Positions 23,965-61,135 of a DNA stretch of 64,000 bases are shown piece after piece. The DNA is taken from contig NZ_SVEV01000002.1 of assembly GCF_015057185.1 (NCBI RefSeq), positions 1-64,000 of the forward strand. The letters are read 5' to 3'. Origin of the DNA: Pseudobutyrivibrio sp. (GTDB lineage Bacteria > Bacillota > Clostridia > Lachnospirales > Lachnospiraceae). The notes beneath the pieces were generated by a model. The model saw only the letters and a program-made list of their open reading frames with translations. It made no database searches and was not told the origin of the DNA. The position numbers were made by a program, and so were the translations under genes. How positions within the stretch are numbered: position 1 is the stretch's first letter; each line of letters begins with the position of its first letter.

Positions 23965-24306
23965 ACACTAAGCAGTATCCTTTTTTGTTTAATTCTTAGT
24001 ACAGATTTCTACTTATGTACTAAGAAAAACAAAAACTATTACTGAGTTTAGTGCGTTCTGATTCAAGCGTACTAAACTACAGAATATAATCACGATATCT
24101 TAGTATGCCGGTGTTTATAATGCACTAAATTATAAGGAAAAATGACTATATCTTAGTGTATCCACTGAAAAACATAAATCATTTGAATGCAATCGTACTA
24201 AGAAATAGCGTCAAATTAACTATAGTTTAGTGCAACCAGCTGAAAGTGCACCTGATATAGGCTCAAGCGTACTAAGATTTTTGGTGATACTAATCTGGTT
24301 TAGTAC
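23965..24306. repeat. Phased inverted-repeat array I (YTTAGTRY / RYACTAAR)
   Basis: Twelve 8-bp motifs alternate in orientation. Reverse copies start at 23965, 24017, 24069, 24122, 24195 and 24269; forward copies at 23995, 24047, 24099, 24152, 24226 and 24299. Reverse-to-reverse steps are 52, 52, 53, 73 and 74 bp, and forward-to-forward steps are 52, 52, 53, 74 and 73. Two units carry an extra 21 bp. These equal 5 or 7 turns at 10.5 bp per turn. The sequence between motifs is not conserved. The array fills the gap between tspO and the next gene. Confidence 0.9.
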
Positions 24307-28145: not shown

Positions 28146-28163
28146 CACAAGAAGTCATAGCTT

Positions 28164-28430
28164 TATCACAAGCTAACGAAAACATGCGCTCTGCCAAACA
28201 ACTTGCGATAAGAATTCTTTAAATATAGCAATTTTTTATCGCAAATAGACTCTTAAACCCGCATATTCCCGTTGAGTTGTGATAAAAACAGTACAAATTT
28301 GACGATTTTGTATCGCAAACTAACTCTCGACCCGCATATGATCGTTGGGTTGCGATAAAAACAGGACAAATTTGATAATTCTACATAACAAATATACTCT
28401 CGGCCCCAATGTTATCGTCGGGGTGAAATA
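28164..28430. repeat. Phased inverted-repeat array II (TTGCGATA / TATCGCAA)
   Basis: Motifs alternate in orientation: reverse at 28164, 28237, 28311 and a degenerate copy at 28384; forward at 28203, 28277, 28350 and a degenerate copy at 28423. Same-orientation steps are 73 or 74 bp, or 7 turns of 10.5 bp. Here the intervening sequence is also conserved between the last units, so the array looks like recent tandem duplication of a 73-74 bp unit. A small stem inside the unit changes in a compensatory way (ACCC/GGGT in one unit, CCCC/GGGG in the next). The array fills the gap between the response regulator and kinase genes. Confidence 0.85.
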
Positions 28431-36622: not shown

Positions 36623-38056
36623 CTATATTAACAGCATAGGTATAAATGCCATTGTGATATTGTAAGACATGATCAAAGCACCAGTTACCATTGCAACGAT
36701 TAATGCCACGAACTTCATTTTATAGAATAATGGTTCAGAATGAACCATGCGCTTCAATGCATTGATTGCAATTCCAAGCATACTTACAACGCCCAAAATT
36801 CCATATTCATATAGCATGTGTAAAAATATATTATGTGAGTTTGTAAGGTTTTCTCCCACATACATTGGCTCATATATTTCATGGAAAAGCTCTTGGTTAG
36901 CCATGTAGTCATTATAGAAACTTACAGCACCATGGCCAAAGAACTGCTTTACAAATCCCCCATGGGTAAACAAATACACATTGCATCTCCAAATATATCC
37001 TCGCCCACTTCCCCAATGATTATCAAAATACAATCCATTTCGAAGTAATGATTCATTATCAGGTGAGGCCAAAATAGTGAACGTTATGATATAAACAGGA
37101 TATAGGCTGATTAAAATGCACTCTATTATGGCTAGAACCCAAATTGTTTTATTAAACATCGTGTTATTGTGCAGCCACAGTCCAATTACGGAAAGCACAA
37201 TAATCGGAATACTTATAACAGGTGAAGAAAAAAGAATTTCAATATCGCCAATTTCATAGGTATTAGTAAAAATAGTTCTTAGTATGAATGTTGAAAGCAA
37301 ACTGATTCCAACAATAAGCGTATAGATGTAGGCGTCAAATTTTTTATCTGCATGCTTGAGCAGCATAGCAACAATTATCGTAGATTCCAAACAAAATCCA
37401 ATTATCGCAATATCGGTATTACTAACAAAGATTCCAATGGTGCCAAGAAATATTCCAAGGCTTCCAAGTATACTCCATCGTTTTTTTGAAATTAGATTTG
37501 TACAAAACGGTAGCATTATTACAAAATAGAAGCCTACTAAATCTCTATTTCCTATTGTGCCAAAGAACCCTCCGGTTCCCTCTAATGTAGGTGAAAAATT
37601 TAGAAATTGTAGAATAGTAGTGCCTGCAGTAATAATTAAAGCAATAGCGCTACAACGGCAAAATATCAGTTCATTAACACCTGATAAAGACAGAAAAAAT
37701 ACTGTGACAATGATAGTTAGCAGAAACAGAGCTCCGGAACCATAATCGTAAACACCAAATAGTGTGCTTTTATAGTTGCCGTTTAGTAAAAACGAAATAA
37801 GGATGCTGACTGTACCAATGCCTAGCCATACTTTTTCAGGCTTTGTAAGGATAGATATTGGTAAAGTGTTTTTCTTGATTTTCATAAAAATGAAGATACC
37901 AAGATAGGAGAAAATGTAGATAAATGAAATGGCATAAAAGGCCACAAGCTTTGCTCTGGAAATGTCATAATATGCACTTCGCATTATTAGTGGATATATC
38001 AAAAGCATGAAAATGCAGTAGAAATTATTTAATGATTGTAGCCATTCATTTGTCAT
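36623..38056 (-). CDS. O-antigen ligase-family membrane protein (copy 1)
   Basis: The 477-residue protein has about 12 helices, a large external loop, and the hallmark SHNIFLHMLYEYGILG motif near the C-terminus. WaaL/PglL-type enzymes join polyprenyl-linked glycans to lipid or protein acceptors. The start at 38056 has GGGGGTG upstream; the ATG at 38077 lies before that site. It shares its layout and much sequence with the gene at 40042-41490. It lies next to a small secreted protein gene in the same direction, which may be its acceptor; this is inference. Confidence 0.85.
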   Translation of the reverse strand: MTNEWLQSLNNFYCIFMLLIYPLIMRSAYYDISRAKLVAFYAISFIYIFSYLGIFIFMKIKKNTLPISILTKPEKVWLGIGTVSILISFLLNGNYKSTLFGVYDYGSGALFLLTIIVTVFFLSLSGVNELIFCRCSAIALIITAGTTILQFLNFSPTLEGTGGFFGTIGNRDLVGFYFVIMLPFCTNLISKKRWSILGSLGIFLGTIGIFVSNTDIAIIGFCLESTIIVAMLLKHADKKFDAYIYTLIVGISLLSTFILRTIFTNTYEIGDIEILFSSPVISIPIIVLSVIGLWLHNNTMFNKTIWVLAIIECILISLYPVYIITFTILASPDNESLLRNGLYFDNHWGSGRGYIWRCNVYLFTHGGFVKQFFGHGAVSFYNDYMANQELFHEIYEPMYVGENLTNSHNIFLHMLYEYGILGVVSMLGIAINALKRMVHSEPLFYKMKFVALIVAMVTGALIMSYNITMAFIPMLLI

Positions 38057-38086
38057 CAGGACACCCCCATAATGCACCAGAAAAAA

Positions 38087-38112
38087 TAAGGAGCCGAAAA
38101 ATCGGCTCCTTA
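38087..38112 (-). terminator. Terminator of the minus-strand secreted-protein gene
   Basis: TAAGGAGCCGA and TCGGCTCCTTA pair perfectly over 11 bp around a 4-base loop; on the minus strand a T-run follows. Confidence 0.85.
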
Positions 38113-38124
38113 GAAGTCCAAAGA

Positions 38125-38766
38125 TTATTCAACTACAAATGCGAATGTAGCAAATGATTCTGATGCCCAAACAATTCTATTTCCGTCAAGAACTGTTTCG
38201 CAGCCTTCGATTGTTCCGTCTGCTAAGTATCTATAAACCTTGAGATTCTTTCCTGTAGGAATTGTGAGCCCTGTAGGAGTAGGTACAGAGATTGCAATTT
38301 TTCCATTTAATGCTGACAGCCATGTGCCCTGTGCAGTCTGTGCGCTACAATTGTAAACAGCAACTACAGAAGCCTTTGGTCTCCAATGTGACATTAAAGC
38401 TGTTGCAACAGAGTATGTTTTATCTGTGGTTGCAACATTTGCTGTGTAAACCTTTGTGCCAGAAGGGATAACGTCAGGGGTACAAGCTACTGCGCCACCT
38501 GAAGAATCAGCAGATGCAAACTGCTTTAATGTAACACCAGCTGGACCCTGAACGGTAATCTCGCTACCAGCTGACTGGGTAAGCAAATTGTAACCAGCAT
38601 TTGATGTTGTAGTACTGCTAGTAGAAGCATTAACAGCAGAAGCTGCATAATATATGTTATTGTCTTTAACCTTTGCCAATGAGTTTGTTGCAGGAGTCAT
38701 GCTATAAACTGTAGCAGAAACCACAAGCACACCCAAAGCAAAACCAAATACTTTTCTAATCTTCAT
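38125..38766 (-). CDS. Secreted Ser/Thr-rich surface protein (paralogue 1)
   Basis: The 213-residue protein has a signal peptide (MKIRKVFGFALG core) and a mature part that opens with a Ser/Thr-rich stretch (about 45-60). A conserved domain of about 135 residues ends in WASESFATFAFVVE. The same domain ends the divergent gene at 39039. Start ATG 38766 follows AGGAGGG; the longer frame is rejected. I do not recognise a named family. The adjacent ligase-family gene suggests it could be a glycosylated surface protein. Confidence 0.8.
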   Translation of the reverse strand: MKIRKVFGFALGVLVVSATVYSMTPATNSLAKVKDNNIYYAASAVNASTSSTTTSNAGYNLLTQSAGSEITVQGPAGVTLKQFASADSSGGAVACTPDVIPSGTKVYTANVATTDKTYSVATALMSHWRPKASVVAVYNCSAQTAQGTWLSALNGKIAISVPTPTGLTIPTGKNLKVYRYLADGTIEGCETVLDGNRIVWASESFATFAFVVE

Positions 38767-38955
38767 CTTAAACCCTCCTTGATTCCCAATGATATACGGC
38801 CTAATGGCTTTGAATTGATAATACACCTATTCAATAATTTGAAACATATTTTTCACAAATATTACATATCTTTTTCATAATTGACAGATAATGAATATTC
38901 ACAAGGCTTAAATGGATACACAGCGTTATATTAGGAATAATTATTGATTTTGGGC

Positions 38956-39017
38956 TTGACATATCACGCTACGGGATGTAAAATGCAGTCAGTTTCTCGT
39001 CGTTGGGTATTAACGAC
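38956..39017 (+). promoter_or_regulatory. Strong promoter and leader hairpin of the secreted protein at 39039
   Basis: TTGACA (38956-38961), 17 bp, TAAAAT (38979-38984), one of the best promoters in the window. The leader contains GTCGTT / AACGAC (38999-39004 and 39012-39017), then TTAGGAGG before the ATG. Confidence 0.8.
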
Positions 39018-39038
39018 ATGTAAGTTAGGAGGAAAATT

Positions 39039-39812
39039 ATGAATTTAAGAAAAGTATTCGGATTCACAATCGCAACATTCGCAGTAGCTGCTGCAGTTTA
39101 TTTCGTAACACCAGCTATTGACTCACTCGCAGTTGAGTCTTCAACATCAGAAATTACAGAAGGAACAGAGACACCATCTACTAATACAGAGACAACAGAA
39201 TCAGAGGGCACATCAACAGAAGGTACATCAACAGAGGGTACATCAACCTCAGATGTTGAGCTTACAACTTCAACAACAGTAAATGCTACATCAAGTGAGA
39301 CACAGCAGGAAATTAACCATAATAGAAGAGCAGCCGCTGCTGCCGCTGCAGGAACTTCAAGCTATACAGCTGCTGAGTCAACATACGTAGCTCCTAATGG
39401 CGTAAGTGTTCGCCAGTTCACTTCTCAGGGTACAACTCAGGGATTAGTTGCAGGCGCTCCTGGAATCATCCCTTCAGGAACAAAGGTTGTTACAGATACC
39501 GTTGATGCTTCTTCACCTATATATAATGTTGCAACTACAATAATGTCTATGATGAGACCTGACGCATCAGTAGTTGGCGTTATTGCTGCTAATGCACAGA
39601 CAACAGATGGCACATGGCTTTCAACATTAGACGGCGAAATCGCTATGTCTGTTCCAGTACCAACTGATTTAGTTATCCCAGATGGACAGGAATTACATGT
39701 TTACAAGTTCTTGCCAGATGGCTCAATCGAGCAGTGCGAGACAATCATCGACAACGGACGTATTGTTTGGGGAACAGATTCATTTGCTACATTCGCATTT
39801 GTAGTTGAATAA
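39039..39812 (+). CDS. Secreted Ser/Thr-rich surface protein (paralogue 2)
   Basis: The 257-residue protein has a signal peptide (MNLRKVFGFTIA core, cleavage near residue 30-35). A low-complexity Thr/Ser/Glu stretch (about 36-90, with four-residue TSTEG repeats), a short Ala run after RR, and the same C-terminal domain as paralogue 1 follow. The Thr-rich stretch is a likely site of O-glycosylation. It has a near-consensus promoter and good ribosome site, so it is probably abundant. Its codon use is biased and regular, as in highly expressed genes. Confidence 0.8.
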   Translation: MNLRKVFGFTIATFAVAAAVYFVTPAIDSLAVESSTSEITEGTETPSTNTETTESEGTSTEGTSTEGTSTSDVELTTSTTVNATSSETQQEINHNRRAAAAAAAGTSSYTAAESTYVAPNGVSVRQFTSQGTTQGLVAGAPGIIPSGTKVVTDTVDASSPIYNVATTIMSMMRPDASVVGVIAANAQTTDGTWLSTLDGEIAMSVPVPTDLVIPDGQELHVYKFLPDGSIEQCETIIDNGRIVWGTDSFATFAFVVE

Positions 39813-39830
39813 TTATTTCCTAAAGAACTC

Positions 39831-39857
39831 AGGGGCTTGGCAGATCGCCAAGCCCCT
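39831..39857 (+). terminator. Terminator after the secreted protein
   Basis: AGGGGCTTGGC and GCCAAGCCCCT pair perfectly over 11 bp around AGATC; the T-run is weak. Confidence 0.75.
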
Positions 39858-39884
39858 GTTATTAATATGAAATTCATTTCTTTT

Positions 39885-40041
39885 GTTAATTTATACCCAA
39901 AATGTCTCTCTGTAAATTTATTTTAGATTCTTTTTCATGTAATTTTATTTTTAAATTTTTTTCTTGCTAATTCATATCAAAGTTTTTCTATAAATTTATA
40001 TCAATATTTTTCCAGTGCTAATTTGTAATTATTAATCTGAA
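39885..40041. repeat. Degenerate 27-bp AT-rich tandem repeat
   Basis: Units beginning GYTAATTTATA-like at 39885, 39912, 39939, 39966, about 39990 and 40017 repeat every 27 bp (once 24 bp), with a T-rich second half. The repeats are direct and imperfect. They lie between the terminator and the end of the converging ligase gene. Confidence 0.5.
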
Positions 40042-41490
40042 CTAAATAAGTAAACACAAAAATCCAAGAGTTATATTTTGAACAACTAGGAACATTGATG
40101 CTACCATCGCCCCAACAAGCGCTACAGCTCTGACCCTGCAAAAGAAATCATCTGACGTCAGCCCTCTTTTGATTCTTATTATCAAGAATGCCAACCCTGT
40201 GCCTAATCCCAGGATTCCATATTCACACAAAAACTGTAAAAAGATATTGTGGGCATCGTAATTTGGATACAATCCCATTGCTAGTGAAATTTCATAATAA
40301 TCCTTTATATATGCATTTCCAAATCCCTCAGGTCCTTGCCCAAAGAGCATCTGTATAGGATTGCCACTTTTGAATATCTTCCAAGCAGCTTCCCAAAGAT
40401 ATCCTCTATCTGTTCCCCAATGCACATCAAAATATAATAAATTGCTCCAGAAAGTATTTGGATTATGATCATGCATATTCGTATATACGATGATTAAAAT
40501 AGGCATGATACAAACTAAGCCCAGTGCACCAGCACAGATCCACCATATAATCTCACTAAAAAGATTCTTTGCAGCTTTTCTGGCCAATACAATTCCAACA
40601 ATTGATAGAACATAAGTTATAGCAAGAAATCCTGGTCTAACTAGCAACCTTTGATGAATATCCAAAAACCTCGCAGATGGAATAATAGTAAGCAGGCCCA
40701 CAAATGAAAATGCCAATCCAGTCAAAAGCAAGCATACATAATATGCTAAAGGTTTGCTTTTTAGCATAATAATTCCTAGCACCAGCATAATCACCGCAAA
40801 AGCAAGCACCGTACCATCGTTATTAGAAATCAGCACACCGGTAGCTGCTACAAAAGCACTTACAAAACCAAGCCCCTGGATAAATCTATTCCCACCAGCA
40901 GTCAAACCATAAACTGCAAATGGAAAAATCATCACGAAATAAAACCCAGTAAATGAAATATTTCCAAAAGTCCCCAAGAATATGATTTGATTCTCGTATT
41001 GAATCGCTCCAAGCATTCCACCGATGTCATATCCTACAAATTGAATGATAGAAACAACTCCCACGGCGCATCCAGTCACCAACATCATTACGGTAAATAT
41101 GTTGTGCCGCCTAGCCTTTTTGCTATCATCCCCGAGACTCACCATACATATACACGATATGGCCAACGTCAAAAGAAAAATCAGTCCGGTATTATATTCA
41201 AGCTCTCCAATTAACAGCTCCTTGCCCCGGCCATTAATTAAAAAGCAAACAACAAGACTGGCTATGAACAATCCGCCTAGCGCAAATTCCAGATAATAAT
41301 CCTTCAGCGCCCCATCGCTAGTCATAAGTACCACACCGCTCCCCAGCACCAGTATGAAGCTAGCCACATAAAATACCACCAGCTTCGTATTACTAATATC
41401 AAAATACATATCATGCATCACCAGCGGATAGATTACTAGCATGATGAAATAATAGATATATTTTATGGATTTACTAAGCCTAGTATTCAT
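40042..41490 (-). CDS. O-antigen ligase-family membrane protein (copy 2)
   Basis: The 482-residue protein has about 12 helices and the ligase motif (DAHNIFLQFLCEYGILGLG) near the end, matching copy 1 in order and length. Shared pieces include IYPLVM, DISNTKLVVFY and HWGTDRGYLW. The start at 41490 has GGGGAGTTGGGG upstream; the ATG at 41505 overlaps it. It converges with the secreted protein gene at 39039. Each ligase copy lies beside one secreted paralogue, which suggests duplication of a two-gene unit. Confidence 0.85.
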   Translation of the reverse strand: MNTRLSKSIKYIYYFIMLVIYPLVMHDMYFDISNTKLVVFYVASFILVLGSGVVLMTSDGALKDYYLEFALGGLFIASLVVCFLINGRGKELLIGELEYNTGLIFLLTLAISCICMVSLGDDSKKARRHNIFTVMMLVTGCAVGVVSIIQFVGYDIGGMLGAIQYENQIIFLGTFGNISFTGFYFVMIFPFAVYGLTAGGNRFIQGLGFVSAFVAATGVLISNNDGTVLAFAVIMLVLGIIMLKSKPLAYYVCLLLTGLAFSFVGLLTIIPSARFLDIHQRLLVRPGFLAITYVLSIVGIVLARKAAKNLFSEIIWWICAGALGLVCIMPILIIVYTNMHDHNPNTFWSNLLYFDVHWGTDRGYLWEAAWKIFKSGNPIQMLFGQGPEGFGNAYIKDYYEISLAMGLYPNYDAHNIFLQFLCEYGILGLGTGLAFLIIRIKRGLTSDDFFCRVRAVALVGAMVASMFLVVQNITLGFLCLLI

Positions 41491-41586
41491 TCCCCAACTC
41501 CCCAATGAAAAAAATATAGAAGTACTATTCTTATTTATATTCTAATTTAATCATATTACAAACTTGAATGCTATTAAAAAAACAAG

Positions 41587-41615
41587 TTGACAAATAAAAA
41601 GCAAGGCGTTATATT
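41587..41615 (+). promoter_or_regulatory. Promoter for the array III leader transcript
   Basis: TTGACA (41587-41592), 17 bp, TATATT (41610-41615). No gene starts within 950 bp, so transcription from here would cover a long untranslated leader, array III and the PD-(D/E)XK-like gene at 42593. A hairpin (AGTGGC 41655-41660 with GCCACT 41677-41682) lies in the early leader. Confidence 0.7.
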
Positions 41616-42098
41616 AATAAGCGTTTTAACAAACATTCTATTTTTTATCACTATAGTGGCACGGGTTATTCATTTCGCCACTGTGTTTCCAATTTTATTT
41701 GACCTTTGCGGTCACGGGAGTATGAAAAATTTGGATTAAATAGAATACAGGTTTGTAGATTATATTGCCTGGTTCTAGCTTTGTTAGCATCGTTAGAGCC
41801 AGATAGTCTGCAAAGCAAATTAAAGCACACAAGCAGATCTATTATTTGTAAACGTCAAATTGGCGTGACGTGTATTTGTTGCGGGTATTGCAGAACTGCT
41901 TGTACATCAATCCTAGAAGTATTTACTACAATTGACTGTAAATGCTCAGATCAGAAGCAGTGCATCATTAATCGGTAACACGTTGAAAATTACCTGTAAC
42001 ATAAAGCATAAATTACATATTACAAATCGCAACTTGGATTTAAGGAAGATGAAGTGGGCATAAAGTGTCATAAAAATACGGGCATAAAAGCGGCACGA
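41616..42098 (+). other. Long non-coding leader with several hairpins
   Basis: No convincing gene. A 90-codon frame at 41706-41978 lacks a good ribosome site and has an unusual Cys-rich composition. Hairpins include CTGGTTCTA/TAGAGCCAG (41769-41777 and 41794-41802) and ACGTCA/TGACGT (41852-41857 and 41866-41871). It may be a structured untranslated RNA. Confidence 0.45.
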
Positions 42099-42526
42099 CT
42101 ACGTGGAATTTGGATAGTATTATGTAAATCCACGTAGTGCTACAAACCTGAAATGAACAGGCTACGTGGATATTAGAACATAGTCCTAATATCCACGTAG
42201 AGCATCGGGAGAGTAATAGCCATCCTACGTGGATAACGGACAAGTAACACAGAAACCACGTAGTCTGGCAAGACAGATACATAAACATTACGTGGATAAT
42301 AAAACAACAGCTAAATATCCACGTAGCGTGTTAAAACAGAGACATCCTGACTACGTGGAAATCTCAATATTAATCTAAAATCCACGTAGCACCTCAAAAT
42401 AAGAGAAGTTACACTACGTGGGGATTGAAATTAAAGTCCGAAATCCACGTAGTGTCTCAAAATAACCCAAAACCAGTGAAACCAACCCTACGTGGATAAT
42501 AGACTATGCAATCCAAATCCACGTAA
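42099..42526. repeat. Phased inverted-repeat array III (CTACGTGG / CCACGTAG)
   Basis: Fourteen 8-bp motifs alternate in orientation. Forward copies start at 42099, 42162, 42225, 42288 (first base T), 42351, 42414 and 42488; reverse copies at 42130, 42193, 42256, 42319, 42382, 42445 and 42519 (last base A). Forward-to-forward steps are 63 bp five times and then 74; reverse-to-reverse steps likewise. Each unit is exactly 39 bp with a variable 23-bp centre, and units are separated by 24 bp of variable sequence (last gap 35). 63 and 74 bp equal 6 and 7 turns of 10.5 bp. The second unit is a perfect 15-bp hairpin; the others are not. Confidence 0.95.
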
Positions 42527-42592
42527 GTGCACATAAAAGGCTGTCATAGAAGACTAAACGAGGAGTGAAAAAAAGCATAAAAGGGAGTAGTT

Positions 42593-43387
42593 ATGGAAAA
42601 TTACAGAGAAATATTGAAAAAACAGCTAGAGGAACTTGAGGAGCTCCAGAAAACCACAAAGAAAGAACTCAGTAAAGTAAAGAACGCCCCAGAAGGACAT
42701 ATCCATATATCTGAAAGCAATGGAGTCTATCAGTACTATTATGTAGCTGACGGTAAACGCAAGTACATAAAGAAAAAAGAAATGAATCAGGCTAGAAAAA
42801 TAGCACAAAGAGACTATGATAATGAGTTTCTTCAAATGACTGAGATTCTACATGGAAGACTTGATAGATTCATATCTAGCTATGATATAGGCGTTCTAAA
42901 TGAACTATATATACACAAATCCGAAGCTAGAAAACAACTCATCACACCACTTATTAAACTAGATGAAGACTACATAGAAGAATGGAGAGGAATGCATCCT
43001 GCAGCTCAAAATACATTTGATATAGCTAGTTCATTTATTACTAATCGAGGAGAACGTGTAAGATCAAAATCAGAAAAGATAATAGCAGATACTTTGGATA
43101 GATATGGGATACCATATCAATATGAACCATTATTAGAACTAAAGGGATATCATACAGTATATCCAGATTTTGTAGTACTAAATGTCAGAACTAGAAAAAC
43201 ATTCTATTGGGAACATCTTGGAATAATTTCAGATTTAGAATACGCCACGAAGAATTTCAAAAAGATAGAAGAGTATGAGGATAGTGGATATCTTCTAGGG
43301 AAAAATCTTATCATTACTACTGAATCTGATCGCAGGCAACTAGATGTCTCCTTAGTAGAGGAAAAAATCAAAGCATTTTTATTGTAA
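42593..43387 (+). CDS. PD-(D/E)XK nuclease-like protein downstream of array III
   Basis: The 264-residue protein has an N-terminal coiled coil (about 3-30), a short basic beta region (IHISESNGVYQYYYVADGK), a helical middle, and a C-terminal domain. That domain contains SEKIIADTLDRYGIPYQYEP, then YPDFVV about 25 residues later, and WEHLG. The D...ExH pattern fits a PD-(D/E)XK nuclease core (Asp in YPDF, Glu in WEH, Lys lost or migrated). ATG follows AAAGGGAGT. It starts 66 bp after array III. Whether it acts on the array is unknown; the family appears common in Lachnospiraceae by my recollection. Confidence 0.6.
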   Translation: MENYREILKKQLEELEELQKTTKKELSKVKNAPEGHIHISESNGVYQYYYVADGKRKYIKKKEMNQARKIAQRDYDNEFLQMTEILHGRLDRFISSYDIGVLNELYIHKSEARKQLITPLIKLDEDYIEEWRGMHPAAQNTFDIASSFITNRGERVRSKSEKIIADTLDRYGIPYQYEPLLELKGYHTVYPDFVVLNVRTRKTFYWEHLGIISDLEYATKNFKKIEEYEDSGYLLGKNLIITTESDRRQLDVSLVEEKIKAFLL

Positions 43388-43532
43388 ATAATGTTATATA
43401 ATAAAACTAACAATATATATAGATTGTAAATCTCAATATTAAAATATTCAAAAGAGAATGAGGATACTTAAGTAGTATCATATACACAGATGATTAGAAA
43501 TCAATAAACATAACACACTTCAGGGGGGAGCT

Positions 43533-43934
43533 ATGGGGACTTCAAACACTAGAAAAATAAATGAAAGATTCTATGACGAATATAATTATTTTGACAAAGT
43601 TCTGTGTGAAAGATTAAATATAGAAGAACACGGGGTATCAGGATATTTGGCTAAAATGAAAGAGGCCGTGATTGAAGCAAGGGAAGTTATACCTGAATGG
43701 GATGTCACACGTAATCGTTTGACCAATATTCAAAAGCGCCATGCTGATTTAAAACAAAACGATGAATATTTTGAAGATTTTCAAGGTAAGGATGAGGATG
43801 TGGTTTGGATGCAGGTGTTTTGCGAGAAATTGGAGGCTAATGCCGATCCACTTAGTAAGTATTCGACAATGAAGTTTTCCTATAAGACACGTAAAAAATC
43901 ATTGTGGCAGAGAATAGTGGAGCTGTTTAATTAA
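43533..43934 (+). CDS. Small hypothetical cytoplasmic protein (Lachnospiraceae DUF6548-like)
   Basis: The 133-residue protein is soluble and helical, with a basic LTNIQKRHADL stretch resembling the LRHIRNxLxH motif of small Lachnospiraceae proteins, and a Trp-rich basic end (SLWQRIVELF). The family name is tentative. ATG 43533 follows AGGGGGGAG. No functional partner is obvious; it lies between the nuclease-like gene and a sugar locus. Confidence 0.55.
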   Translation: MGTSNTRKINERFYDEYNYFDKVLCERLNIEEHGVSGYLAKMKEAVIEAREVIPEWDVTRNRLTNIQKRHADLKQNDEYFEDFQGKDEDVVWMQVFCEKLEANADPLSKYSTMKFSYKTRKKSLWQRIVELFN

Positions 43935-43973
43935 ATTACAGTAGCCATGATATAACATACAGGAAGGTGCATA

Positions 43974-46205
43974 ATGACAGGGGTTTTAGACAACATAGTA
44001 TATTTAAAGGCAGGGGAAAGAAAGCTATTAAGGACCAGCAAAACGGTCCTTTTATATTGCTTAAGAGGAGTAATAAATGTCCGGGTTGAGGACAGGGCAA
44101 TTCATTTAATAGAAAAGGAAATGCTGGTTATTAATTCTGGTGAGGAATATGGCTGGACCTCGGATCAGGATAGCTTGATCCTGAAGGTTTCAATAGAGGA
44201 TTATCAGCTGCACAATGCCCTAAGAGCAGATAAAACACAAATTATTCTAAGCAGTGTAGAGCATCAAACGAGAGACTATAATTCTCTTCGTTTTATTTTG
44301 GATTCCATAGTAAAACAGACTAGTCGAGATAATAGCTTTGCATTGAAAAGCTTGTATTATCTGCTTTGGGACAAGGTTGTAGAGGATTATTATGTCAAAG
44401 ATAATTACCCAGAACTAATATCAAAAGAGGGGCAAAAATTCCAGGAAATAAGCCAGTTTGTATATCAACATTTCAATGAGAATCTAAGTCTGAGAGAAAT
44501 ATCTGAAAAATATGGTTATTCGGAATCTACCTTCTCAAGACTATTTAAAAAGTACTGCGGGGAGAAATACGTAGACTTCCTCAGGAGAGTGAGGCTGGAG
44601 CATGCTAGGTCATTGCTTTTAGAAACAGATAGCTCTGTTGCAGATATTGCATTCCAAACAGGCTTCGGAAACCTGTCGGTATTCAATAGGAATTTTTTGG
44701 AAATATACGGAATCCAACCATCTAAATATAGGCAAAAACAAAATGCTATAGATGATGAAAATATTGCCAGCAAAAATGATATCAAGCAATACATAGATAA
44801 AACTCTGACCAGTGATGGCAACAGAGTAAGCGAAGAGATTGAACTAAATATTGATGCTAATGGAGGGTATCCAGTTACAAAAACAGTTACGGATGTTTTG
44901 GGACCGGTGAGGGCAAATGAATTGCTTACAGGTCAGCTCCAGAGGACTATTCTTAAAATCAAGGATGACCTGAGGATGAAATATCTTATGGTTACTGATG
45001 TGATGGAGCTAGGCTTTGATAATGATCCAGCTAATCCCTCCTTTGAAAAAATTTGCCTTGCTCTGCAAATCATAACTGACCAATTGCATCTGATTCCAAT
45101 TTTGGAAATAGATAGAACAGCTGCTTGGAAGGGGCTACTTTCCTTTTTGGAGCTGCGATATACCAAAGAAACCATTGGAAAATGGCTGTTTAAAATAAAT
45201 GATAGTAAAGAGTATTCTGCAAACGAATTCTGTAATAAATATATCTCCATAAGCAGGGCTATAAAGGAAGTCATTCCAAAAGCAAAAATAGGTGCAGGAA
45301 ATATCAACTGCATTATCAATCCGGAAAAGCTAGAAAAAATAATCGAATACTTCCAGAAAGAAAATGTAAAAAATGAATTTGTTTCGCTGTTTTGTGCTCC
45401 ATTTTCAGGGGAAGATTATAAAAGTGCCTACTCTGTTAGCGACAAGCATTTCGTGGAAAACAATCTAAATATATTTGAAGAAATAGCAGCCAAATATGCT
45501 TATAAAACAAGCCTTTGGATTGAGGGCTGGGATGCTAACTTAATAATTGGCGATGCCTATAATGACAGCTGCGCAAGAGCCTGTCACACACTAATGCAGA
45601 TTTCAGATTCTATTGAAAAGGTTGAGCATTTTTGTTGCAGCAGAATCAGCGATTGGTCATATGTGACAGAACAGTTCCAGTATCCTATTTGTGGCGCCGG
45701 CGGATTGATTTCAAAGGATGGTCTGAAAAAGCCGGTATATTACTCGCTTTTTATGAATGTGTTTGCACCGGGTTTTTGCATTGCTAAGGGGGAAGGCTAT
45801 TATGTGTCCAAAACGGAGGATGATTACTATTGCCTGATTTTATACAATGCCCAGAGATTCAATGCCCTCTATTATCAGCATGATGGCAAAGTAATGCCTG
45901 AGATGCTTGACTATATTTTCGAAAGTAAAAAGACTAAGACCTTCAAATTGAATTTTTCCAATGTGAAAAATGGCACGTATAATGTAGCATCCTATGAGGT
46001 TGTTTCGAATAAAAATAACGTGCTGGCAGAATGGAAAAATTTGGAATTCAAATCGGTTCTTAATACTGGTGAAATCGAATATTTAAATGCTGTTTGCAAT
46101 CCCAAACTTTCCTATAAAACAGAGATAGTTTCTAATAACGTATTGTCCCTGAAATATGTTCTAGGACCAAGTGATTTTAGCTTGATAATGTTTACACCAA
46201 AATAA
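43974..46205 (+). CDS. AraC-family regulator fused to a GH39-like domain
   Basis: The 743-residue protein has an N-terminal cupin-like region (about 1-85), an AraC double HTH (about 160-258; LSLREISEKYGYSESTFSRLFK and VADIAFQTGFGNLSVFNRNF), and a long C-terminal part (about 270-740) that resembles glycoside hydrolase family 39 beta-xylosidases. The barrel region keeps the DVMELG and LWIEGWD strands. Such fusions are seen in Firmicutes beside glycoside transporters; the domain may act as a sugar sensor. The genes for a GPH transporter and an esterase follow. ATG follows GGAAGGTG. A terminator separates it from the transporter. Confidence 0.8.
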   Translation: MTGVLDNIVYLKAGERKLLRTSKTVLLYCLRGVINVRVEDRAIHLIEKEMLVINSGEEYGWTSDQDSLILKVSIEDYQLHNALRADKTQIILSSVEHQTRDYNSLRFILDSIVKQTSRDNSFALKSLYYLLWDKVVEDYYVKDNYPELISKEGQKFQEISQFVYQHFNENLSLREISEKYGYSESTFSRLFKKYCGEKYVDFLRRVRLEHARSLLLETDSSVADIAFQTGFGNLSVFNRNFLEIYGIQPSKYRQKQNAIDDENIASKNDIKQYIDKTLTSDGNRVSEEIELNIDANGGYPVTKTVTDVLGPVRANELLTGQLQRTILKIKDDLRMKYLMVTDVMELGFDNDPANPSFEKICLALQIITDQLHLIPILEIDRTAAWKGLLSFLELRYTKETIGKWLFKINDSKEYSANEFCNKYISISRAIKEVIPKAKIGAGNINCIINPEKLEKIIEYFQKENVKNEFVSLFCAPFSGEDYKSAYSVSDKHFVENNLNIFEEIAAKYAYKTSLWIEGWDANLIIGDAYNDSCARACHTLMQISDSIEKVEHFCCSRISDWSYVTEQFQYPICGAGGLISKDGLKKPVYYSLFMNVFAPGFCIAKGEGYYVSKTEDDYYCLILYNAQRFNALYYQHDGKVMPEMLDYIFESKKTKTFKLNFSNVKNGTYNVASYEVVSNKNNVLAEWKNLEFKSVLNTGEIEYLNAVCNPKLSYKTEIVSNNVLSLKYVLGPSDFSLIMFTPK

Positions 46206-46264
46206 CTGAGACTTTTTGCAGGCTATTTAATGGAAACGTCCGCAAGAGCTAGTGCAAAAATTGT

Positions 46265-46295
46265 AAAGGATATGATGAATAATTTCATATCCTTT
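46265..46295 (+). terminator. Terminator after the AraC-GH39 gene
   Basis: AAAGGATATGA and TCATATCCTTT pair perfectly over 11 bp, followed by ATTTATT. Confidence 0.75.
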
Positions 46296-46412
46296 ATTTA
46301 TTAGGAAAGAAATTATCGGTATTAACTGCAAGATGGGGTGTGAATCATTAGATAATACCTGCCTTTATGAATAAAATTAAACTAAATTCATAAAGAAAAA
46401 GGGGGATTACTT

Positions 46413-47774
46413 GTGAACACGAAAAAAGGAGAAGTTGGGAATTTACAGGTCGGCATGTACGGTATAGGAAACTTTGCGGCACAGCTATCATGGACAATGG
46501 TAAGCACATATTTGGCAATTTTCTATACCGATGTGTTTGGATTGGCACCGGCTGCAGTTGCACTATTGATGCTGATTGCCAAGGTATGGGATGGAATTAA
46601 CGATCCAATCATGGGAGTTATCATGGAGAAAAATAATTCCAGATTTGGAAAGTACAGACCATTCATCGTAGTGGGAACTATCGTGTTGGTTGTATTTACA
46701 ATTCTCACATTCACAGTTCCAAATTTTGGTTCCACAGGAAAACTTGTGTGGGCATATGTAACCTACATCTGTCTTGGAATGTCATACACAATGGAAAACG
46801 TACCATTCAACGCACTTCCATCGAGAATGACAAAGAACCCAAACAGAATCAATCAGCTATTTTCTGCCAGCATGATGGGTGGCGCTTTCGGTGGAATGGT
46901 CCTCATGTCATGCACACTTCCAATTGTTATGGCGCTTGGAAATGGTGACCAGGCAGTAGGATATCAGAGAACAGCAGCCTTATATGCAATTGTAGCTGTA
47001 ATACTTAATCTAATCGTTGTATATTTTTGCAAGGAAAATGTTGAGACTGTTGAAAAGGCAAAGCAGACTGTAACAACAAAGGAATTGGTAGTTGCTGTTT
47101 TGAAAAACAGAAATCTTATGCTGTTATTGATTTACACATTGATTCTAATGATTTCTGTAATGGGGCGCGTTGGCGTAATGATTTATTTCTATATGTATTG
47201 CGTCGCAAACCCTGCATTGATGGGCGTGCTTATGATTATCCCTAATATTGCTGGAATGCTCGTAATGCCATTTTGCCCAGTTCTCATGAGAAAATTTGGA
47301 AAGAAAAATGTGGCAATTGCTGGAGTTTTAATCGGCTCATTTGGACTTGGAATGATGTTCTTTGGACCATATACAAATATGCCTTGGATGATACTTGCAA
47401 GCATCGTTTACGGCTGCTATAGCATTGGAAGCCCTTGCGGTGGTGGACTTTTGATTGACGCAGTTGATGAATATGAAAAGAAAAATGGTGTGAGAACAGA
47501 AGGCTTGGCTTTCTCTCTCAGCGGCTTGATGAATAAAATTGGTGGTGGAATAGGAAGTGCTGCAGGCGTTGCATTGATTGGATTCTTTGGCTACACAAAT
47601 AACGCAGAGCTCACACCAACAATTTTGAAAGGAATCAACGTAGGTGCAAACCTTATGCCAATAGTCATGATGTTGTTAGCATTGGTGCCATTGTTCTTCT
47701 TTAATGCAAAGGAGAGCAACGGACCTGTTGAAAATAAAGAGACTGTAGCTCAGGACCAGAAGGCTACAGCATAA
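46413..47774 (+). CDS. GPH-family glycoside-cation symporter (MFS)
   Basis: The 453-residue protein has 12 helices and the family features: WDGINDPIMGVIMEKNNSRFGKYRPF in loop 2-3 (the conserved D, R and G residues; positions about 61-86) and GLMNKIGGGIGSA in the second half. It imports glycosides, pentosides or oligosaccharides with a cation. The start is GTG 46413 after AAAGGGGG. It lies between a GH39-type regulator and a carboxylesterase, so xylan-derived substrates are likely by inference. Confidence 0.9.
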   Translation: MNTKKGEVGNLQVGMYGIGNFAAQLSWTMVSTYLAIFYTDVFGLAPAAVALLMLIAKVWDGINDPIMGVIMEKNNSRFGKYRPFIVVGTIVLVVFTILTFTVPNFGSTGKLVWAYVTYICLGMSYTMENVPFNALPSRMTKNPNRINQLFSASMMGGAFGGMVLMSCTLPIVMALGNGDQAVGYQRTAALYAIVAVILNLIVVYFCKENVETVEKAKQTVTTKELVVAVLKNRNLMLLLIYTLILMISVMGRVGVMIYFYMYCVANPALMGVLMIIPNIAGMLVMPFCPVLMRKFGKKNVAIAGVLIGSFGLGMMFFGPYTNMPWMILASIVYGCYSIGSPCGGGLLIDAVDEYEKKNGVRTEGLAFSLSGLMNKIGGGIGSAAGVALIGFFGYTNNAELTPTILKGINVGANLMPIVMMLLALVPLFFFNAKESNGPVENKETVAQDQKATA

Positions 47775-47796
47775 AAATAGGAAGAGGCATTATATA

Positions 47797-49146
47797 ATGA
47801 GTGAAATTTTAATACATACAAAGAAGGGCATAATTCGAGGTGAAGGAAAAAATGGGTACAGTGTTTTTAAGGGTATTCCATTTGCAAAGCCACCAGTTGG
47901 TAAACTGCGTTGGAAAGCGCCTGTGCCTGTGGAGCCTTGGGGTGGAGTTTTAGATGCAACTGAGTTTGCACCAATTTGCCCGCAGGGGGTTCCAGCGCCA
48001 CCTAATCCATACTTTAATGAGTTTTACAGCGATAAAAAATATCAGCGTGAAATGAGCGAGGACTGCCTGTATCTGAATATATGGGCACCAGAAAATGCTG
48101 AGGGCAAGAAGCTTCCTGTGGCGTTTTATATTCACGGTGGCGGCTTCGGTGGCGGCTACAGTTCTGAAATAGAATTTGATGGTGAAGCATTTTGCAAAGA
48201 GGACGTGATTTTGGTAACTATCGCATATCGCGTTGGCGTTTTTGGATTTCTCGCTTTGCCACAGCTTGATGCAGAAAATGAGAACCATATTTCCGGAAAC
48301 TATGGAATGCTAGATCAGATTGAGGCTTTAAATTGGGTTTATGAAAATATTGAAAGCTTTGGTGGAGACCCTGAAAATATCACCGTCTTTGGTCAATCTG
48401 CAGGCTGCATGAGTACCCAGATTCTCATTTCAAGCCAACTCACCGAGGGCAAAATCGCAAAGGCTATTTTTATGAGTGGTCTAACCTGCGATGATGAGTT
48501 CCTGTTTACTCCAACTTTAAAAGAGGAAGAGGAATGCTGCAAGGAAATGCTAGAAGAGCTTTGTGATTTGTCCGTGGCTGAGCTTAGAGAACTCAACGAA
48601 GAGATTTTGCTGAAAAAGCATGAGGCTTTCAATATGAAAATGATGAAAAAAGCCTTTGAAGAGGGGAGTGCAGGTGGACTTTTGATTGTCCCAAATGTGG
48701 ATGGACACCTACTTAAGAAAAATGTCCGTGAAACATTTGCGGCAAATGAATTCCACAAGATTCCTTACATGGTTGGCTGCGTGTTAGAAGATTTGGGAAC
48801 AACAGACGATGACAGGAAAAATAATGTTCCTGGATTGCTGTTGGAGCAGGCAAAAAAATGGGCCCTAAAGCAAGAGGAGGCTACAGGCATTCCTTCATAT
48901 GTATATTCATTCGATTATATTTTGCCGGGAGATGAAAAACCAACTTGGCATTCACTGGAGCTTTGGTACGTGATGGGCACCTATGGTAGAAGCTGGCGCC
49001 CAATGACAGAGGCAGATGCAGCCCTGTCTAGAGAAGCAGTTAAATGCTGGACCAATTTCATGAAAACAGGAAACCCTGAAAGTGCCGAAACTGAGGAGTG
49101 GAAGCCATATACAAATAACAATAGGTTTGTCAGACATTTCGTATAA
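47797..49146 (+). CDS. Type B carboxylesterase/lipase family protein
   Basis: The 449-residue alpha/beta hydrolase has the oxyanion HGGGFGGG block (about 111-118), the nucleophile serine in FGQSAGC (near 206), and SEDCLYLNIWAP. It ends WxxFxxTGNPE-like (CWTNFMKTGNPES), typical of type B esterases, with His in PTWHSLELWYV as base. No signal peptide is present, so it acts inside the cell, probably on esterified sugars imported by the preceding transporter. Intergenic gap 22 bp with GGAAGAGG. Confidence 0.88.
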   Translation: MSEILIHTKKGIIRGEGKNGYSVFKGIPFAKPPVGKLRWKAPVPVEPWGGVLDATEFAPICPQGVPAPPNPYFNEFYSDKKYQREMSEDCLYLNIWAPENAEGKKLPVAFYIHGGGFGGGYSSEIEFDGEAFCKEDVILVTIAYRVGVFGFLALPQLDAENENHISGNYGMLDQIEALNWVYENIESFGGDPENITVFGQSAGCMSTQILISSQLTEGKIAKAIFMSGLTCDDEFLFTPTLKEEEECCKEMLEELCDLSVAELRELNEEILLKKHEAFNMKMMKKAFEEGSAGGLLIVPNVDGHLLKKNVRETFAANEFHKIPYMVGCVLEDLGTTDDDRKNNVPGLLLEQAKKWALKQEEATGIPSYVYSFDYILPGDEKPTWHSLELWYVMGTYGRSWRPMTEADAALSREAVKCWTNFMKTGNPESAETEEWKPYTNNNRFVRHFV

Positions 49147-50486: not shown

Positions 50487-50538
50487 CCAATCGTATAGGT
50501 CCGGAGATAATTATTAGATAGTTTAATTTAATAAGTGA

Positions 50539-50624
50539 GCATGTAGCTATCAAGCTCTAAGTGTTGCTGCAGGGAACGTTTCAGTGACCGGAAGCAATAT
50601 CTTAGGCTTGAGAGCGTAACATGC
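50539..50624 (+). ncRNA. 86-nt structured RNA element, copy A
   Basis: Outer stem GCATGT/ACATGC; then CAAGC/GCTTG and CTAAG/CTTAG with one bulged T; then TGTTGCT/AGCAATA; and a 24-base apical part. The 3' strand ends GAGAGCGTAACATGC, 17 bases before the capG start. Same length and core as copies B-D. Confidence 0.85.
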
Positions 50625-50641
50625 GGACTAGAGGTATTCAA

Positions 50642-51801: not shown

Positions 51802-52848
51802 ATGAATTGCGAATTATTTAAAGATAAAACACTTATGATTACTGGAGGTACAGGTTCATTCGGAAGTACAGTTCTCAAGCACTTCCTTGATTCTGACCTC
51901 AAAGAGATCCGCATTTTCTCACGTGATGAGAAAAAGCAGGATGATATGAGACATCAGCTTCAGGCTGAGCACCCTGACCTTGCAGGTAAGGTGAAATTCT
52001 ACATCGGTGATGTTAGAAACATGCGCTCTGTTCAGGATGCTATGCCAGGTGTTGATTTCATTTTCCATGCAGCAGCACTCAAGCAGGTTCCTTCATGCGA
52101 GTTCTTCCCAATGGAAGCTGTTCGTACAAATGTTGAGGGCACTGATAATGTTTTACATGCAGCTGTAGAGGCTGGCGTTCAGCGTGTAGTTTGTCTTTCA
52201 ACTGACAAGGCAGCATACCCAATCAATGCCATGGGTATTTCAAAGGCTATGATGGAGAAAGTTATCGGAGCAAATGCTCGTGTGGCAGCAGGCAAGACAA
52301 CAATCTGTTGTACACGTTACGGTAATGTTATGTGCTCTCGTGGTTCGGTTATTCCTCTTTTCATCGACCAGATCAAAGCAGGAAATCCTATCACAATCAC
52401 AGACCCAAGCATGACTCGTTTCCTTATGAATCTTGACGAGGCAGTTGCCCTTGTTATGTTTGCATTCGAGCACGGAGAGCCAGGTGACTTATTCGTTCAA
52501 AAGTCAGATGCTTCTACAATCGGAGATTTAGCAAAGGCTGTTCAGCAGCTCTTTGGAGATACAGGCACAAAGATTATCGGTACACGTCATGGTGAGAAGC
52601 TTTATGAGACACTTATGACAAACGAAGAGTGCGTTCGTTCAGTAGACATGGGCAACTATTTCCGCGTACTTCCAGATGGTCGTGACCTTAACTACGACAA
52701 GTTCTTCGTAGATGGTCAGGTTCATACAATGGCTAATGATGCCTACACATCACACAACACAAATCGTCTTGATGTACAGGGCACAGTAGACAAAATCATG
52801 ACTACAGATTATGTTCGTGAAATGCTAGAAAAGTTTAAAAATAGCTAG
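51802..52848 (+). CDS. capE: CapE-like UDP-GlcNAc 4,6-dehydratase/5-epimerase
   Basis: The 348-residue SDR protein opens with MITGGTGSFGSTVL, and has HAAALKQVPSCE and a catalytic region around STDKAAYPINAMGISKAM with Met-x-x-x-Lys instead of Tyr-x-x-x-Lys, as in the CapE/FlaA1 class. It starts the UDP-L-FucNAc pathway. ATG 51802 follows AGAGG inside the end of capG; 51781 is rejected. Its stop codon TAG is part of the outer stem of RNA copy B. Confidence 0.92.
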   Translation: MNCELFKDKTLMITGGTGSFGSTVLKHFLDSDLKEIRIFSRDEKKQDDMRHQLQAEHPDLAGKVKFYIGDVRNMRSVQDAMPGVDFIFHAAALKQVPSCEFFPMEAVRTNVEGTDNVLHAAVEAGVQRVVCLSTDKAAYPINAMGISKAMMEKVIGANARVAAGKTTICCTRYGNVMCSRGSVIPLFIDQIKAGNPITITDPSMTRFLMNLDEAVALVMFAFEHGEPGDLFVQKSDASTIGDLAKAVQQLFGDTGTKIIGTRHGEKLYETLMTNEECVRSVDMGNYFRVLPDGRDLNYDKFFVDGQVHTMANDAYTSHNTNRLDVQGTVDKIMTTDYVREMLEKFKNS

Positions 52849-52929
52849 TAATTATCAAGCTCTGAGTGTTACCGAAGGAGACGTGTTAGTCGACGTAGGT
52901 AATATCTCAGGCTTGAGACTGTAACTAGC
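52844..52929 (+). ncRNA. 86-nt structured RNA element, copy B
   Basis: Outer stem GCTAGT/ACTAGC, CAAGC/GCTTG, CTGAG/CTCAG, TGTTACC/GGTAATA, and a small apical hairpin GAC-GTGTTA-GTC. The 5' strand contains the capE stop codon, so translation termination could influence folding. It lies 22 bases before the SMR-like gene. Confidence 0.88.
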
Positions 52930-52951
52930 GAGAAAAAACTAGGAGTAAAAA

Positions 52952-55256: not shown

Positions 55257-55359
55257 TTGACTAGCCATCGTTGATAATTAACGAGTTATTATTGTATTTT
55301 TAAGGTTATTTATTTTAATTAGTTTTATATAAACAAGCACCTGATAAATATTTTAAATA
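55257..55359. other. AT-rich gap before RNA copy C
   Basis: No gene and no clear terminator. The stretch is AT-rich with a short TAATTAACGAGTTATTA palindrome-like segment. RNA copy C follows. Confidence 0.4.
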
Positions 55360-55445
55360 GCTGGTAGCTATCAAGCTCTGAGTGTTGTCGAAGGAAGCGT
55401 GTTAGCTGACGAAGACAATATCTCAGGCTTGAGAGCGTAACCAGC
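55360..55445 (+). ncRNA. 86-nt structured RNA element, copy C
   Basis: Outer stem GCTGGT/ACCAGC, CAAGC/GCTTG, CTGAG/CTCAG, TGTTGTC/GACAATA, apical hairpin AGC-GTGTTA-GCT. Compared with copy B the apical hairpin changes on both sides, which supports pairing. It lies 44 bases before the aminotransferase start. Confidence 0.88.
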
Positions 55446-55489
55446 AAGTTAAAAACTCAGTAGGTGCTAGGTGTAATAAGGAGGAAATT

Positions 55490-60988: not shown

Positions 60989-61074
60989 GTTTGTAGCTAT
61001 CAAGCTCTTGGGGCTACTCAAGGGAGACATGTTAGTCGACCTGAGTGACCTCGAGGCTTGAGAGCGTAACAAAC
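60989..61074 (+). ncRNA. 86-nt structured RNA element, copy D
   Basis: Outer stem GTTTGT/ACAAAC, CAAGC/GCTTG, CTTGGG/CTCGAG with G-T pairs, TACTCA/TGAGTG, apical hairpin GAC-ATGTTA-GTC. It begins on the base after the SGNH stop codon and lies 61 bases before the ABC transporter start. It is the most diverged copy, yet still 86 nt. Confidence 0.85.
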
Positions 61075-61135
61075 GGAGTAGAGCTAGAGTGCCCTACGGG
61101 AGCAAGAAAAACTACAAGGAGTCATATATTATATT

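Follow-up and report, generated by a model that had tools for sequence, protein, structure and literature searches.

Why a bacterial genome should keep one short word in alternating orientation, at almost fixed distances, just ahead of a single gene is the question raised by Array III, which lies at positions 42099..42526 (+ strand) of the window analysed here, a 64,000-nucleotide stretch of a Pseudobutyrivibrio sp. contig. It is made up of seven inverted pairs (units) of the form CTACGTGG...CCACGTAG, units 1-4 at 42099-42137, 42162-42200, 42225-42263 and 42288-42326, and units 5-7 at 42351-42389, 42414-42452 and 42488-42526. The site starts (42099, 42130, 42162, 42193, 42225, 42256, 42288, 42319, 42351, 42382, 42414, 42445, 42488 and 42519) reproduce exactly what the initial annotation had claimed, namely 14 alternating 8-bp sites with starts 31,32,31,32,31,32,31,32,31,32,31,43,31 bp apart; 12 of the 14 are perfect and two are one-base variants, TTACGTGG (42288, site 7) and CCACGTAA (42519, site 14). 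The two strands of the window together hold 12 exact matches to CTACGTGG, against 0.52 expected and a maximum of 2 in 100 shuffles. At 10 of the 14 sites the motif is extended by AT on its inner flank, and the same-strand (unit) period is 63 bp, with a final step of 74 bp. The sequence between the motifs had been called mostly unique, and the spacers do differ for the most part: compared over 53 nt that include the motifs, five units share 60-74% identity with the reference unit, and the first unit falls outside the family so defined. Elsewhere in the genome the exact pair CTACGTGG-N15-40-CCACGTAG occurs once more, at C42:52959. The shorter core ACGTGG..CCACGT gives 9 pairs genome-wide, 7 of them in Array III, and its dispersed matches alone mean little, since a reversed-pattern control yields almost as many (7).

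Directly downstream, starting 66 bp past the last site, is the gene for P0001 (42593..43387, + strand), a 264-residue protein for which the reading frame, profile matches and alignment indicate an N-terminal domain followed by a PD-(D/E)XK-like nuclease domain. The latter covers residues 142-261 (43016..43375, + strand) and contains the signatures SKSE (E161), PD (D192) and EH (E207-H208); E161, D192, E207 and H208 are invariant in all 74 aligned family members, motif III reads EHxG, and the canonical Lys is missing. Neither Pfam (E up to 5) nor NCBIfam (E up to 1) gave a match for P0001, and filing the family under a known one was rejected because the Pfam and NCBIfam matches to its members are weak and scattered. 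The C-termini of all six such proteins in the genome match the C-terminal part of PDC-S68 (P0001 with an E value of 1.7e-27), which we take to be a nuclease, the PDC-S68 model itself bearing no description. A model named PD-DEXK matches three of the six at E up to 1 (P0001 weakly, E 0.0064), and at E up to 0.01 the endonuclease phrog_29037 is matched by 23 of the 74 family members and the Holliday junction resolvase phrog_9019 by 15. PDC-S68 and HEAT_CxxC_PDDEXK, both PADLOC candidate defence models, resemble the family in having a C-terminal nuclease-like domain, but they are longer (1202-1273 and 288 positions, respectively) and only their C-terminal parts match. By sequence similarity the family resembles the PD-(D/E)XK nuclease superfamily, and we refer to P0001 as a predicted nuclease. 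Solved structures gave a single poor match (E 0.049). An integrase identity of the N-terminal domain was considered and dropped, as the weak match to phrog_1 (E 9e-4) is common to only one of the 74 members at E up to 0.01. Among phages, one record aligns with 87% of the query, with 30% of residues identical, and the other two match the nuclease part only; all six matching plasmid records likewise cover the nuclease part only.

Is the combination of array and gene peculiar to this locus? The genome contains six paralogous genes of this kind, that for P0001 among them, each behind an alternating array with a different motif (CTACGTGG; GACACGAA; TGCACTTA; GYACTAAR; GCAGTGGTAA; TTGCGATAA). The TGCACTTA array (L003), with an alternating 7-mer score of only 2, was recognised by eye, as was a ParA-like reading frame upstream of L003. 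For comparison we used these six loci together with the best 80 among 571 relatives confirmed by scanning species genomes; all 80 are from Lachnospiraceae, bar one labelled only Clostridiales. Upstream of the gene a score of at least 3 was reached in 55 of 85 loci, each with at least 200 bp upstream. Not one of 850 controls made by dinucleotide resampling reached it, and of the stretches downstream of the gene 5 of 83 did. The remaining 30 loci are under the threshold, and a few low scores depend on AT-rich words and were later excluded. The gene itself is present in 28 of 29 genomes of the genus, at 1-12 copies each, and the protein family in all 21 good-quality genus genomes searched (own included). 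An even draw of 398 genomes from the phylum gave 9 matches at E up to 1e-20, five of them near full-length and of the same family (Lachnospiraceae), the other four mainly to the nuclease domain. One genome with nine nuclease genes (G008) illustrates the variation: five genes score at least 3 upstream, L164 scores 2, L168 has its array downstream, and no array was found upstream of L165 (358 bp available) or L171 (1300 bp). Single arrays examined for spacing have up to 19 sites. This comparative evidence indicates that arrays accompany this nuclease-like protein family, and that a genome would typically hold several such protein-array pairs with different motifs.

If each array is the target of its neighbour, motif and protein should vary together. 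Across the 46 arrays that were both in the alignment and had a motif consensus, motif similarity correlates with identity of the N-terminal domain (residues 37-140) at a rho of 0.29, or a partial value of 0.28 once the nuclease domain is accounted for (0 of 999 permutations), and not with that of the nuclease domain (residues 141-264; partial -0.05, 803 of 999 permutations). The six alignment columns best associated with the motif are S42, V45, N43, L80, I149 and E41, four of which (41, 42, 43 and 45) lie within codons 36-50 of P0001 (HIHISESNGVYQYYY; 42698..42742, + strand). Loops of the type G-[YF]-[QR] pair with ACACG, ACACT or GCACGC motifs 11 times out of 12, and the remaining loops pair with other motifs 33 times out of 34; for loop and motif classes that were picked after inspecting the table, the resulting counts (11/1/1/33) give a Fisher p of 1e-8, or 2e-7 over 36 distinct loops. 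The motifs are also better conserved than their surroundings: in three close pairs of loci they are 98-100% identical, the spacers 72-77% and the genes 91-95%, and in 11 array pairs pooled, 673 of 741 motif positions are identical, as are 2190 of 2896 spacer positions. One of these 11 pairs, L038/L042, has no motif excess (0.42 versus 0.48), its alignment being perhaps out of register. Since the motif tracks the N-terminal and not the nuclease domain, recognition by the neighbouring protein is supported, and we regard it as highly probable that each array is recognised by the protein encoded beside it, with the N-terminal domain reading the 7-8-bp motif. Whether Array III may further be called the private DNA platform of the downstream nuclease-like protein, the two together constituting a nuclease-array element, we judge to be an evenly balanced matter.

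The spacing of the sites bears directly on how such a protein might bind. The initial annotation had suggested helical phasing, a view that random spacing in relatives would have contradicted, and the reverse of random spacing was seen. In 50 arrays of 25 motif clusters, 45 cluster-unique same-strand spacings follow n x 10.5 bp, none deviating by more than 2 bp (R 0.90, best period 10.50, phase 0.00), a fit that none of 20,000 random sets attained, and the mean residual is 0.62 bp against 2.6 expected. In this set only spacings of 30-140 bp had been admitted beforehand, values no more than 2 bp apart were merged within a motif cluster, and seven arrays were omitted: L003, L022, L025, L055, L080 and L086, with spurious or overlapping motifs, and L034, with no usable spacing. 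With none omitted, all 57 arrays give an R of 0.88 over 109 values and a best period of 10.45. Another 18 arrays outside the 50, which together with their motifs were hand-picked, agree more loosely: their 26 values give an R of 0.75 with a best period of 10.3 and a phase of -0.05, again with 0 of 20,000 random sets as good. Three of these values, 60, 71 and 111, miss the grid by 3.0, 2.5 and 4.5 bp, respectively, beyond the 2-bp margin, and were retained. Because the arrays share ancestry, these statistics are not built on fully independent events. The strongest part of the geometry is found inside single arrays, where the gaps differ by about whole turns: 33 and 44 bp in Array III, 20, 30 and 62 in L038, and 33 and 66 in L019.

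The near-constant element is the inverted unit itself, which in arrays holding TAC..GTA spans 35-39 bp from edge to edge in 31 of 32 cases and 42 bp in the remaining one (L076). Between units, the gaps in these arrays take values of 14-17, 25-26, 36-37, 56-59 and 67-69 bp; the only gap outside these classes measures 22 bp, again in L076. The 11 bp added at the one irregular gap of Array III, which had been read as about one more turn, therefore has its counterparts elsewhere, inter-unit gaps changing in helical steps. The 63-bp period of Array III stands, but it is only one rung on a ladder on which 5, 6, 7, 9, 10, 11 and 12 turns are all seen. The array spacing is, in short, a B-DNA ruler. 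The further proposal that a protein reads all sites from one face of the DNA is supported for sites of the same orientation; those of opposite orientation need not share that face, as what is nearly constant is the inverted pair of about 37 bp. Regular spacing might in principle result from passive tandem duplication of units, and some arrays do have near-identical spacers (L062, L051), and whole units have been lost or gained, as between L047 and L049, which differ by a 53-bp indel corresponding to one unit and by a 4-base indel next to genes that are 100% identical after rounding. Yet in Array III, L006, L013, L028 and L038 motifs and phase persist although the spacers differ widely, and gaps that are unequal within one array and still differ by about whole helical turns, despite unlike spacers, contradict mere copying, which we find scarcely credible as the source of the spacing. 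A binding protein is the better account: one dimer would sit on each inverted unit of about 37 bp, and the dimers would line up along one face of the DNA as a filament. We consider this arrangement of dimers likely. It borrows from IS607-family TnpA, whose dimers occupy multiple subterminal repeats cooperatively as a nucleoprotein filament (PMC6188088); that picture is the source of the filament model proposed here. The systems differ in that TnpA is a serine recombinase acting at a transposon end, while the protein described here is PD-(D/E)XK-like and no transposon ends were noticed.

The position of the array relative to the promoter introduces two other readings. About 0.5 kb upstream of Array III there is a promoter-like TTGACA-N17-TATATT (41587..41615, + strand), and promoters of this type recur upstream of related arrays. 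Under a stricter rule 25 of 51 arrays have a promoter, and 24 of these 25 promoters precede their array. Only L006 has its array upstream instead, and the array of L172 was likewise seen by eye to lie upstream of its promoter. It follows that in loci with a promoter the array probably forms part of a transcribed leader. Forty-five nucleotides after the start of the -10 box, a leader hairpin AGTGGC-N16-GCCACT (41655..41682, + strand) precedes Array III. Such a hairpin occurs in 23 of 39 leaders, 18 times starting 41-47 nt after the -10 box start and with differing stem sequences, as compared with a mean of 2.0 and a maximum of 6 of 39 in shuffled leaders; it is often followed by TTCC. Rfam gave no match within the window at gathering scores.

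The arrays could accordingly be viewed as rows of RNA hairpins, a structured leader or a small-RNA array on which the protein would act at the RNA level. Promoter and leader hairpin are where this view would have them, and each of the seven pairs in Array III is able to form a hairpin (-10.3 to -22.7 kcal/mol; z scores from -2.4 to -7.1). However, beyond the motif, pairing between cognate flanks does not exceed that between non-cognate flanks, either over 6 nt taken after a skip of 3 (mean difference -0.09 across 41 gap classes, p 0.48) or over the first 8 nt (48 classes, difference -0.13, p 0.17); the comparison covers the flanks and not the motif arms themselves. For this reason RNA hairpins are not favoured, and hairpin pairing was rejected as the main constraint even though single pairs fold well, in keeping with the earlier remark that a row of RNA hairpins is insufficient to explain the array. 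Nor would RNA need the 10.5-bp spacing of B-DNA, and two nuclease-free arrays, inspected by eye, have no such promoter and leader. We therefore consider an RNA function very improbable, and the idea that the leader makes the whole an RNA system was set aside in view of arrays downstream of the gene and at nuclease-free places. Another system for comparison is TIGR-Tas, described in phage and parasitic bacteria, whose arrays give guide RNAs (PMC12045711). An array next to a DNA-targeting protein, here a predicted nuclease, is the likeness (PMC12045711); the differences are that here the spacing follows the turns of B-DNA and that no RNA constraint was found beyond the motif.

A simpler function on DNA would be that of an autoregulatory or sequestering operator, in which a host nuclease, for example a defence enzyme, coats the array, blocks its own transcription and stays parked there, remote arrays serving as sinks or extra operators and no cutting taking place at arrays. 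Apart from the order of promoter and array in the 24 loci, this agrees with the distance of 28-140 bp from the start of the last motif to the gene, seen in 44 of 51 arrays, with the match of the nuclease domain to the candidate defence model PDC-S68, and with an array (Array II, see below) between two-component genes, possibly in a roadblock position. Up to 19 sites, however, go far beyond the needs of an operator; there are also arrays that follow the gene (G008 C17), that lie ahead of the promoter (L006, L172) or that stand at places free of nuclease genes, where the eight genes scanned beside them have no function in common. As a complete explanation we hold the operator to be unlikely, though not negligibly so. 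Part of it is shared by the nuclease-array element that we favour: where a promoter was recognised, the array mostly separates it from the gene, so that RNA polymerase would cross the array, which suits autoregulation, and the bound protein may, with less confidence than is given to binding itself, restrain its own gene. Such feedback has, in our estimate, an even chance of being real.

What sets the remaining arrays apart is the absence of a nuclease gene next to them. Array I (23965..24306, no strand assigned) comprises 12 sites GYACTAAR/YTTAGTRC in 6 units with periods of 52, 52, 53, 73 and 74, and sits between a TspO/MBR-family gene and a 277-aa reading frame; its motif and 30-bp unit spacing are those of the array belonging to the nuclease gene at G000:C56:27523-28314. 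Array II (28163..28358, no strand assigned), with alternating TTGCGATAA/TTATCGCAA, some with one mismatch, and a period of 73-74, separates a response-regulator gene from a histidine-kinase gene and matches in motif and spacing the array belonging to the nuclease gene at G000:C36:21072-21755. In the five closest relatives of the kinase (L211-L215, 73-53% identity), only 12-16 bases were counted by eye between regulator stop and kinase start, and by score no array stands between regulator and kinase in any of ten kinase relatives, two of which (L219, L220) have another gene upstream; the orthology of these places is assumed from best matches. The genome thus holds further arrays with the same motif as a nuclease-linked one, one of them separating two genes that in the closest relatives are almost contiguous. 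GACACG pairs number 26 genome-wide, against 2 in a reversed-pattern control, and form three arrays, one beside a nuclease gene and two without (C36, C42); C48 holds another array without a nuclease gene, and GCGATA pairs number 13, chance matches included. In G008, the nearest compared relative of the C36 nuclease (67% identity over residues 37-140) has its array downstream, and further arrays are found on C4, C6, C13 and C17. The GGCTAAT pairs and arrays of G008 (L144, L160, L161, L162) match the motif of none of its nuclease-linked arrays found; their reader may be L165, L171 or a protein of another family. As a separate observation made by eye, the spacers of TTGCGATA arrays (L207, L108, L209 and window positions 28163-28358) often hold a second word, alternating and RTGCG-like, about midway.

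Presence at a given place varies as well. Within 1.5 kb upstream of a thioesterase gene, 3 of 25 genomes score at least 3, each with a different motif (GACACG plus CTACGTGG units in G000, GGCTAAT in G008 and GTATTAA in G015), and the other 22 score at most 2, including G019 and G028, both with a nuclease gene near. G019 has a cassette of about 1.5 kb, made of leader, array and nuclease gene, where two relatives have 77 and 81 bp; inspection by eye of its borders noticed no terminal repeats and no target duplications. Between same-motif arrays from different places, spacer similarity exceeds that of shuffles only slightly, so that recent copying of arrays is not supported, and simple recent copying was discarded. 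Phased site arrays, several per genome and in trans, would also be expected of sites that organise a chromosome or plasmid, as those of a centromere or domain-marking protein do. Against this stand the several motif sets per genome and the presence or absence at the same place that varies between species, and no partition ATPase was seen among the eight neighbouring proteins of Array III that were scanned; we deem an organising role quite improbable.

For the nuclease-array element we propose, again with less confidence, that the nuclease domain nicks or cuts at arrays, through which units would be gained or lost and non-autonomous arrays would arise at new intergenic places. The pair would then work like a nuclease-plus-repeat genetic element whose arrays spread in trans. 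We offer this nuclease-driven gain and spread only tentatively, at somewhat less than an even chance. A close parallel is REPIN/RAYT, in which REP repeats are duplicated in trans by a tyrosine transposase (PMC8049555). The likeness extends to inverted pairs of short motifs, diverse spacers, a nuclease-type gene and dispersal in trans between genes (PMC8049555). The protein here is, however, PD-(D/E)XK-like and not a tyrosine transposase: the tyrosine-transposase family is absent from the Pfam matches of the six own proteins, and is not among the 25 of 39 Pfam families listed for the 74 members at E up to 0.1. Helically phased multi-unit arrays and several motif sets per genome are further differences, as are the numbers, 26 GACACG and 13 GCGATA pairs (chance matches included) versus REPIN counts of 69 or more for the E. 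coli genomes of that study (PMC8049555). By this analogy the element is REPIN/RAYT-like in its supposed working and not by membership, the defining transposase being replaced by another type of protein. Two other assignments were dismissed: CRISPR-Cas, since the repeats alternate in orientation and no Cas family (Pfam) is present in eight neighbours and P0001, and restriction-modification, since no methyltransferase is present among the eight neighbouring proteins scanned from 36623 to 49146. The open-access literature, outside which most subscription journals lie, yielded no recognised description of such arrays or of the protein family.

It is conceivable, though rather short of probable, that these loci represent a new class of Lachnospiraceae element, in which a one-gene nuclease polymerises along one face of its own helically phased array of inverted sites, spreads further arrays in trans and has given rise to several orthogonal protein-motif pairs in the same cell, a readable code linking a short N-domain loop to the DNA motif. 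If true, this would establish a nuclease-repeat partnership with whole-turn spacing as the conserved feature and with many natural, mutually distinct protein-motif pairs, would make testable how a cognate protein maintains bacterial repeat populations, and would supply naturally occurring DNA-binding loops whose target words are known.

Other repeats are present in the window. A 52-nt inverted repeat at 38124-38175 and 39762-39813 has arms that are 94% complementary and 1586 nt apart, located at the 3' ends of two convergent reading frames without a Pfam match, near O-antigen-ligase-like genes; possibly it bounds an invertible segment. A repeated stretch of up to 109 nt is found at 50525-50633, 52830-52938 and 55346-55454, the other two copies being 66% and 80% identical to the reference one, and a 33-nt part of it recurs at 61054-61086.
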